Position numbers and translations under genes: made by a program
Shown here: positions 578 through 28,495 of the stretch, piece after piece
Position numbering within the stretch: position 1 is the first letter of the stretch
How the letters are laid out: each line of letters starts with the position of its first letter
The notes under the pieces: generated by a model
The model's input: the letters and a program-made list of their open reading frames with translations, nothing else
The model's database searches: none
What the model was told of the DNA's origin: nothing
Virus record (IMG/VR): IMGVR_UViG_3300008450_000300
Location: 1 to 30,094 of that record
Reading direction: 5' to 3' (one strand)
DNA from: a virus
Length of the DNA: 30,094 nucleotides

Positions 578-1153
578 ATGATAATTTATTTACTTTCTTT
601 TCCAAACGGAAAACATTATGTAGGAAGAACAAAAAACTCGTTAGAGCAAAGATTAATTGAACATAAAACTAGAGCTACAAAAAATTACCAACACCCTCTC
701 TATTACGCAATCAATAAGTACGGTTGGGATAATATAGGTAAAGATAAATTATGTACTATAAGCACAGAAGAAGAACTAGTATTAAAAGAATTAGAATTTA
801 TAAAAAAATATAATTCACTACAGAACGGATATAACCTGACATTAAATACCGAAATAGGGGGAGATAACTGGAAAGGAAGAAGGGATACAGAAGAATATCA
901 GCAATTTTTAAGCAAGATGAGAGAGTTGAGATTAGGGGAAGGTAATGGAATGTTTGGAAAAACCCATACACAGGAAGCCTCAGATAAAATGAAAGAAAAA
1001 GCAAAAGGTAGATTTTCTCTAGAATGGTTTCAACATAGAAACGGAATAGAAGAAGGAGAGAAACTATATAAAGCAAGATGCCTATCCTTAAAAAATCGAA
1101 AATATAAAGATATGAAAGATCCAGCTACCGGACAGTTTAAGAAGAAGGTATAA
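578..1153 (+). CDS. GIY-YIG homing endonuclease with NUMOD3 motif
   Basis: A 191-residue free-standing homing endonuclease. The N-terminal GIY-YIG nuclease domain (about 1-95) has the variant motifs IIY (2-4) and YVG (14-16), then Arg25 and His29, and a Glu-rich helix with E71/E73 before KKYNSLQNGYNLT, where the catalytic glutamate of this family sits. Residues about 121-142 (GNGMFGKTHTQEASDKMKEK) are a NUMOD3-type DNA-binding motif. The C-terminus is Lys-rich and ends in a DPATGQFKKK stretch. The gene is inserted between capsid and phoH with its own upstream promoter-like motif and terminator, as expected of a mobile gene beside a conserved target. The usual first Gly of GIY is missing, so activity is not certain. 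Confidence 0.85.
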   Translation: MIIYLLSFPNGKHYVGRTKNSLEQRLIEHKTRATKNYQHPLYYAINKYGWDNIGKDKLCTISTEEELVLKELEFIKKYNSLQNGYNLTLNTEIGGDNWKGRRDTEEYQQFLSKMRELRLGEGNGMFGKTHTQEASDKMKEKAKGRFSLEWFQHRNGIEEGEKLYKARCLSLKNRKYKDMKDPATGQFKKKV

Positions 1154-27749: not shown

Positions 27750-27764
27750 ACTATTTATATTAAA
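27750..27764 (+). promoter_or_regulatory. Putative late promoter motif upstream of structured RNA
   Basis: ACTATTTATATTAAA, differing at one position from the commonest form. Transcription from it would begin close to 27770, almost exactly where the first hairpin begins. Confidence 0.48.
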
Positions 27765-27770
27765 TAAGAA

Positions 27771-27855
27771 GGTACTGGTCCTACCAATAAAAACATTATG
27801 GAGATTTTAAGAAGACACTACGGACCAGGTAGTTATTTTTAATTTCTCCTTTTTT
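27771..27855 (+). ncRNA. Candidate kissing-loop RNA / leader with terminator-like end
   Basis: Two short hairpins have perfectly complementary 7-base loops. Hairpin 1 is GGTA (27771-27774), loop CTGGTCC (27775-27781), TACC (27782-27785). Hairpin 2 is ACTAC (27817-27821), loop GGACCAG (27822-27828), GTAGT (27829-27833). Stems and loops are all perfect pairs, which favours an intramolecular kissing interaction. An outer stem GGAGA (27800-27804) / TCTCC (27845-27849), followed by six T, looks like a transcription end. A promoter-like motif lies just upstream. It may be a small phage RNA or an attenuator controlling the endonuclease gene that starts at 27863. This is seen directly in sequence, but function is inferred. 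Confidence 0.45.
27798..27842 (+). CDS. Possible 14-residue leader peptide
   Basis: A short frame MEILRRHYGPGSYF starts between the two hairpins and its codons 7-12 make hairpin 2. If it is translated, ribosomes would open hairpin 2 and the outer stem, as in attenuation leaders. No ribosome binding sequence is visible, which is usual here. It may equally be a chance frame. Confidence 0.25.
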   Translation: MEILRRHYGPGSYF

Positions 27856-27862
27856 ATTTAAT

Positions 27863-28495
27863 ATGATAGGGATTTACAAAATAACGAGTCCAAGTGGAAA
27901 AATTTATATTGGACAAAGTGTTCATATACAGAATAGATTTTCTGCATATAAAAGATTATCAAACTGTTCTGAGCAACATAAGTTATATAGATCTTTTGTA
28001 AAGTACGGTGTACAAAATCACATCTTTGAGATTATAGAAGAGTGTCAACTAGATACTTTAAATACAAGAGAAAGATACTGGCAAGAATTCTACGATACGA
28101 TCAGCAATGGTTTAAACTGCATGTTAACAAGAGATGCTGATAGAAGTGGAAAGCATTCTCAAGAAACAATCGAAAAAATGCGTATAGCAGCTAAAGGAAA
28201 GTCAAAATCCTCAGAACATGCTGAAAAAATTCGACAAATAAGAATAGGAACAAAACAATCAGAAGAAACAAAACGGAAAAGAAAACAAACTCTAAAAGCA
28301 ATTTGTAATACAGAAGAGTGGTTAGCAAAGGTTACAAGAAAGCCAGTAGTGCAGATAAAAGAGTCTAAGGTTGTAGCGGAATATCCATCAATATTAGCGG
28401 CAAAGCAGATCACTGGAATAACGACAGTGGGAGATTGTTTAGCAGGTAGGGTTAAAAAAGCAGGAGGATTTATCTGGAAATATAAAGATCAATAG
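27863..28495 (+). CDS. GIY-YIG homing endonuclease with NUMOD3 and NUMOD1-type motifs
   Basis: A 210-residue free-standing homing endonuclease. The nuclease domain has canonical GIY (3-5) and YIG (15-17), Arg25 and a TRERYWQEFYDT helix with Glu70 as probable catalytic residue. Two NUMOD3-like stretches (about 94-111 DRSGKHSQETIEKMRIAA and about 112-130 KGKSKSSEHAEKIRQIRIG) and a Lys-rich segment follow. The C-terminal part (about 160-208: KPVVQIKESKVVAEYPSIL, TTVGDCLAGRVKKAGGFIW) is a NUMOD1-like helix-turn-helix DNA-binding module. The gene lies immediately before gp32 with a structured leader at its 5' side. Unlike the endonuclease at 578, it keeps all GIY-YIG residues, so it is probably active. 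No intron was detected around it. Confidence 0.9.
   Translation: MIGIYKITSPSGKIYIGQSVHIQNRFSAYKRLSNCSEQHKLYRSFVKYGVQNHIFEIIEECQLDTLNTRERYWQEFYDTISNGLNCMLTRDADRSGKHSQETIEKMRIAAKGKSKSSEHAEKIRQIRIGTKQSEETKRKRKQTLKAICNTEEWLAKVTRKPVVQIKESKVVAEYPSILAAKQITGITTVGDCLAGRVKKAGGFIWKYKDQ

Follow-up and report, generated by a model that had tools for sequence, protein, structure and literature searches.

The region immediately upstream of a homing endonuclease gene in the analysed window (the whole stretch of DNA under study, 30,094 nt, IMG/VR record IMGVR_UViG_3300008450_000300) carries two hairpins with exactly complementary loops, and elements of the same plan are found 5' of many homing genes carried by viruses that infect Bacteroidetes. 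Judging from sequence comparison, it is near certain that the two main types of this element, designated here as type I and type II, form a kissing-loop RNA structure. We consider it fairly probable (about 60%) that the element is a cis-acting 5' attenuator leader, combining a terminator braced by the kissing helix with, in type I, a lock on the start codon, and limiting and timing expression of the downstream gene. The leader RNA probably governs whether and when this gene is on.

The window derives from a T4-like phage: its tail sheath protein shares 72% identity with the one in Flavobacterium phage immuto, and genes for DNA polymerase A and a gp32-like ssb are also present. The endonuclease gene (27863–28495, plus strand) codes for a free-standing GIY-YIG homing endonuclease of 210 aa (Pfam GIY-YIG, E = 1.9e-6; PHROG homing endonuclease, E = 4.7e-28) and sits between p92 and ssb, within a pol-p150-p92-ssb operon. 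In L006, this junction is empty: the cassette is absent, and the gap between p92 and ssb is about 73 nt. The genes located 5' of cassette copies are co-oriented with them and mostly 13–42 nt away.

The element lies on the plus strand, 5' of the endonuclease ATG at 27863. Hairpin P2 (27771–27785) consists of a GGTA/TACC stem (27771–27774 and 27782–27785) and the loop CTGGTCC (27775–27781), which forms the first kissing strand. An A-rich linker (27786–27799, from alignment A1, with roughly 14–22 nt in relatives; about 14–25 nt overall) leads to hairpin P3 (27800–27849), built from a base stem GGAGA/TCTCC (27800–27804/27845–27849), a middle stem (27807–27813/27836–27842), and a top stem ACTAC/GTAGT (27817–27821/27829–27833). 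The apical loop of P3, GGACCAG (27822–27828), is the second kissing strand and an exact complement of the P2 loop; in each copy both loops are on the same strand, with 40 nt between them. P3 is directly followed by a U-run (6–7 U; T6 at 27850–27855), a signature of intrinsic terminators. All parts described in the first-pass annotation were found in place, namely two perfect hairpins spaced 31 bases apart with 7-nt reverse-complementary loops, the outer GGAGA/TCTCC stem with its T run, and a promoter-like motif in front; a TATTTATA box with a putative promoter role lies at 27752–27759. The unit had been estimated at about 85 bases; its end 7 bases before the ATG stands, but the real unit is larger. 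Its 5' limit is the TATTTATA box, which also bounds the conserved cassette, and folding and covariation reveal an outer AU helix, P1, in which the 5' arm UAUAUUAAAU (27756–27765), overlapping the promoter box, pairs with the 3' arm AUUUAAUAUG (27856–27865) and thereby takes in the start codon (27863–27865).

Such an arrangement had been considered unlikely to arise by chance, and the calculation bears this out: dinucleotide shuffling of the window (300 replicates) gave an expectation of 0.01 pairs of perfect hairpins with 4-bp stems and 7-nt loops, no more than 80 nt apart and with exactly complementary loops, while one, the pair described above, was seen. A chance origin is ruled out by these shuffles and by the relatives of the element. 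The fold in the window, calculated with programs that ignore the pseudoknot, has a z-score of -3.5, with no shuffle folding as well, and P3 has a fold energy of -16.8 kcal/mol, compared with values between -10 and -14 kcal/mol for three ordinary window terminators.

Examination of relatives had been proposed at the outset as a check of the element, with loss of both loop complementarity and stems as the refuting outcome; instead, both are kept. Pattern scans of IMG/VR, together with one MAG contig, yielded 37 distinct copies of type I, the type present in the window, which were picked with a regular expression that specified the P3 base alone and ignored the loops; two more matches to the P3 base are unrelated chance matches outside this set. 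Complementary loops of 6 to 9 nt are present in 37/37 copies, maintained by compensatory changes across about a dozen loop sequences, including CTGGTCC, CTGCAAC, CTGCGAC, CTCGTCC, CTGGTAC, CTCGTAC, CTAGTCC, CTTGCC(C), ATGCAAC, CTGACC, and CTGGAAC, and loops swapped between copies match in only 2 of 1174 comparisons. In L298 and L303 both loops are shortened together to 6 nt. Across 35 aligned copies, 95.5% of the cells of the kissing helix are paired, with double changes at 5 of the 7 pairs, and misaligned rows have complementary loops when read one by one. P2, the P3 middle stem, and the P3 top stem covary as well, with P2 appearing as GGTA/TACC, AGAGT/ACTCT, GAGTA/TACTC, TAAGCA/TGCTTA, or GATG/CATC. 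The P3 base is invariant, partly since the search patterns required GGAGA/TCTCC, and it is therefore not counted as evidence. All five pairing measures exceed those of 500/500 shuffles and of all slid controls. The U-run of type I varies from T4 to T7.

The genes downstream of type I leaders encode GIY-YIG and NUMOD3/HNH homing endonucleases, endonuclease-VII-like HNH proteins, and a GIY-YIG/NUMOD3 protein. Several copies may reside in one genome, with four on one 102 kb contig and three on one 50 kb contig. None of the 11 pairs of co-resident copies have identical loops; the chance probability of this is 0.24, so avoidance of identical loops within a genome is suggestive and not significant. 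The element is patchy, since model R1 found no match in the cultured T4-like phages immuto and FL-1 and in several long T4-like contigs. A genome scan gave two matches, of which L313 is real and L312 a chance one; no copy was found in 192 bacterial genomes around the MAG of L313, which says little because this group is probably not Bacteroidota. The copy at L310:2380–2493 (minus strand) has lost the P1 3' arm together with the beginning of the nuclease gene, and appears to be a decaying cassette.

The same GIY-YIG family is represented by 80 loci, 12 of which have type I leaders. Other leaders in this family, recognised by reading and then by computation, are unrelated to type I in sequence and yet identical in plan. 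In type II, P3 carries the inner motif AGUA-GAG-N-(7-nt kiss)-CUC-GAAA. The AGUA/GAAA internal loop is strictly kept beside the kissing loop (for example, in L397:1145–1195); its AGUA/GAA part resembles a sarcin-ricin internal loop, and it is possibly a contact for a protein or ligand. In an alignment of 32 type II copies, for which the kiss was required for entry, 95.5% of the cells of the kissing helix are paired, with double changes at 7 of 7 pairs; pairing of the inner stem reaches 100%. The fair test is a scan by the P3 inner motif alone, which returned 29 distinct matches: 26 complete copies, two chance occurrences in coding sequence, and one copy cut by a contig end. All 26 testable copies have the 7-nt complement in the loop of an upstream hairpin, with 22 different loop sequences, and swapping loops between copies gave a match in 0 of 1142 comparisons. 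Pair counts exceed 500/500 shuffles and all slid controls, and the kiss is the sole conserved long-range pairing evident in this type. G-U pairs are tolerated within the conserved pairings of both types. Type II leaders have a U-run of T6–T8 and are missing P1; T4-like copies have TATTTATA ahead of P2, and most non-T4-like copies have a box of the Bacteroidetes promoter motif, TAnnTTTG, just 5' of P2.

Type II leaders precede genes for GIY-YIG and several HNH endonucleases, as well as replication operons. Downstream of the leader in L425 is a gene for a replication initiation protein, and model R2 detects the type II leader in two phages of cultured Flavobacteriia, Harreka_1 of Olleya (E = 8e-6) and elemoF of Flavobacterium (E = 1.6e-4), where it is followed by a small ORF and then by the gene for a replication protein. 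These occurrences at replication operons rule out an RNA specific to endonucleases: the initial description of a kissing-loop RNA in front of a homing endonuclease is confirmed at the window, but the architecture extends further. At the homologous site of phage elemoA (71% identity, a band within which 61 of 70 records fall) direct reading shows other stems and no AGUA/GAAA loop, yet the loops TGAGAGC and GCTCTCA are complementary. When all sequence analysed was scanned for the general architecture, 39 distinct cases emerged, versus 9 in shuffled sequence of equal total length. The leader type does not match the endonuclease tree cleanly, in a tree with few columns, open forks, and two mislabelled rows (L368 and L402, labelled N despite carrying type I leaders).

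Six other loci (L383, L413, L419, L387, L345, and L392) have complementary hairpin and terminator loops of other sequences, and complementary-loop leaders lie ahead of non-endonuclease ORFs in L422 (minus strand, near 1195) and L369 (near 2743); these eight leaders are probably additional types. At L344, L350, L360, L373, L379, L386, L394, and L405, a simple terminator, such as GGGAGTAGT...ACTACTCCC TTTTTTT, ends at the ATG of the GIY-YIG gene with no kissing hairpin 5' of it. In L395:1–2002 an endonuclease gene is inserted in a tRNA gene array with at least eight members.

The TATTTATA box is the top enriched 8-mer within 60 nt upstream of the window genes, where 9 of its 11 sense copies lie (P ~9e-10), with occurrences at 557, 1161, 1890, 6783, 15682, 16264, 17285, 19788, 26986, and 27752. 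It is the reverse complement of T4's TATAAATA, lies on the sense strand ahead of late genes, and is invariant in alignment A1 except for the last base; it is the likely late promoter box for phages of this group. The end of the box is usually 13–30 nt from the ATG and 103 nt from it at the kissing-loop element. The second GIY-YIG homing endonuclease gene of the window (578–1153) has the same box (557–578 region) 13 nt from its ATG and no kissing leader. In T4, transcription starts about 6 nt downstream of the late box TATAAATA (PMC3014915), and by analogy with this spacing a late RNA start is predicted at approximately 27765–27768, placed near 27766, downstream of the P1 5' arm.

The late box at 27752–27759 thus overlaps the 5' arm of the putatively inhibitory helix P1 (27756–27765), as in leaders of the I-TevI type. 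In the 35 aligned type I copies, 95.4% of P1 cells are paired and two pairs show double changes, with some pairs broken (alignment pairs 9-118 and 14-113 in several copies); compensatory changes include C-G in L298 versus U-A in L303, A-U in L290, and C-G in L293. The mean predicted probability that the AUG is unpaired is 0.095 in the long RNA and 0.55 in the late-start RNA of these copies, with a mean of 0.42 for other window genes, so that folding models predict a type I AUG closed in the read-through RNA and open in RNA from the late promoter. Such a difference in accessibility and the compensatory changes in P1 would also be expected of a device acting on translation only, following the I-TevI/mobE principle known in T4 and Aeh1 (PMC2988022), here with a more elaborate fold in which the kiss between P2 and P3 would serve as a scaffold to hold the weak AU helix P1 shut in the read-through RNA and the U-run would be no terminator. 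We regard this explanation as unlikely: type II has the kiss, the hairpin, and the U-run and yet neither P1 nor AUG closure, its AUG being unpaired with predicted probabilities of 0.36 in the long and 0.40 in the short RNA, and the position of the U-run follows the hairpin rather than the AUG. The AUG lock as a general function is therefore ruled out.

Type I, type II, and the elemoA leader have no sequence in common, yet all keep a hairpin with a U-run. The U-run stays at the hairpin, and its distance to the AUG varies between about 3 and 29 nt, suggesting a transcription terminator and making attenuation likely. P3 matches the ordinary terminators of the window in stability, and this stable hairpin and its U-run are located between a promoter and a gene. 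The intramolecular kiss looks feasible by estimate, because the A-rich linker seems long enough to span P3 and the kissing helix. No conserved antiterminator strand is evident by eye in alignments A1 or A3, and a working terminator within the operon could be polar on ssb, which could count against the attenuator reading.

The comparison shows P2 and the terminator-like P3 joined by an intramolecular kissing helix of 6–8 bp, with the U-run and the start codon directly after them. If the element is an attenuator leader, as we favour, it would move together with its promoter as one unit. Read-through RNA that begins in the replication genes upstream would have a closed AUG because it contains P1, and early translation of the endonuclease would be blocked; in RNA started at the late box the AUG would be open because the P1 5' arm is missing. 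Finally, P3 and the U-run would act as an intrinsic terminator, braced or timed by the kiss, and only a fraction of transcripts would reach the coding sequence. This last step would be common to types I and II; promoter use, termination, and the direction of the kiss effect are what we infer from these sequence features. More tentatively, one could hypothesise a widespread and hitherto undescribed class of kissing-loop-controlled terminators in Bacteroidetes viruses, with a plan conserved between types of unrelated sequence, serving replication operons and several homing endonuclease families, in which some factor (a protein, the state of RNA polymerase, or a ligand) makes or breaks the kiss.

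The first-pass annotation had suggested either a stand-alone RNA or an attenuator, and the latter fits better because the element is fixed before start codons rather than placed by arbitrary genes. A small RNA of about 85–95 nt ending at the U-run, acting in trans on other copies or host RNAs and now and then extended into the gene by read-through, would agree with the order of promoter, two hairpins, and terminator, and with the different loops of co-resident type I copies. We nevertheless find it distinctly improbable, since the element always lies directly ahead of a start codon, the type I AUG itself pairs with the leader, and the loops change freely as long as they match in cis, so that a trans target would have no conserved seed to pair with. 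Because the RNA adjoins a nuclease gene and complementary loops could pair between molecules, a partner RNA of the nuclease, comparable to omega RNA with IscB/TnpB, or a loop-mediated dimer could also be proposed; it is very improbable given that the same RNA types occur ahead of unrelated nuclease folds (GIY-YIG and several HNH) and replication genes, and that Rfam searches gave no match, to HEARO or otherwise. A signal at the DNA level (an operator, a cleavage or homing site, or mobile-element inverted repeats) with incidental RNA pairing is hardly credible, despite the outer arms being inverted repeats and T4 intron endonucleases binding operators that overlap their own promoters (PMC2988022), as drifting loops with retained complementarity and tolerated G-U pairs indicate RNA structure rather than a fixed protein site.

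Rfam searches of the window and related leaders at gathering and relaxed thresholds returned only chance matches and tRNAs, and no account of such an element was found in the literature searched, mainly open-access papers; within this scope the original statement that no equivalent had been described holds. Unusually clean compensatory evolution, absence from Rfam, and the occurrence of several types in many copies indicate a real new set of RNA families rather than one odd hairpin. As a cis leader or attenuator the element would belong to a known kind, while its RNA architecture appears to be new. If the terminator reading is true, an upstream hairpin in cis would play the part of the antisense RNA in plasmid attenuators, the entry of mobile endonucleases into replication operons without harm to the phage would be explained, and the regulatory logic of T4 would extend to Bacteroidetes viruses. 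The element is testable now in cultured carriers, the elemo phages on Flavobacterium sp. BAL314 and Olleya phage Harreka_1, and its natural orthogonal kissing pairs could find use as RNA parts.

Among known systems, HEARO and the IscB omega RNA are likewise structured RNAs adjoining an endonuclease gene; however, they are much larger and guide one nuclease family. The PeSL of T4-type phages are mobile cassettes of an early promoter and a single stem-loop that move between phage genes; the elements described here are similarly small, mobile promoter and stem-loop cassettes, but they have two kissing hairpins, and their promoters are late or host-type. The resemblance to ColE1 RNAI/RNAII noted in the first-pass annotation holds for the 7-nt fully complementary loops and is a geometric analogy only, because the pairing here is intramolecular, within one transcript. 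In ColE1 two opposed RNAs are produced from opposite strands, and such an antisense pair is ruled out here, both loops being on one strand. The succession of promoter, structured leader, terminator-like hairpin with U-run, and gene resembles that of intrinsic-terminator attenuators, with termination predicted in our case. Plasmids pT181 and pIP501 have rep leaders with antisense-controlled terminator attenuation, and the leaders of Harreka_1, elemoF, and L425 occupy the same control position at a replication gene or operon; the complement of the terminator loop is supplied here in cis by the upstream hairpin and not by a separate antisense RNA. The leaders of T4 I-TevI and segB and of Aeh1 mobE contain inhibitory hairpins with internal late promoters (PMC2988022; PMC3014915), and share with type I a phage homing endonuclease, a late promoter in the 5' arm, an early/middle operon setting, and an initiation region closed solely in read-through RNA, the latter being a model prediction in our case. 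Those leaders, however, form a simple local hairpin over the Shine-Dalgarno sequence, whereas here a long-range helix covers the AUG, two extra hairpins joined by a kissing helix are present along with a U-run, and one conserved cassette serves unrelated nuclease families.
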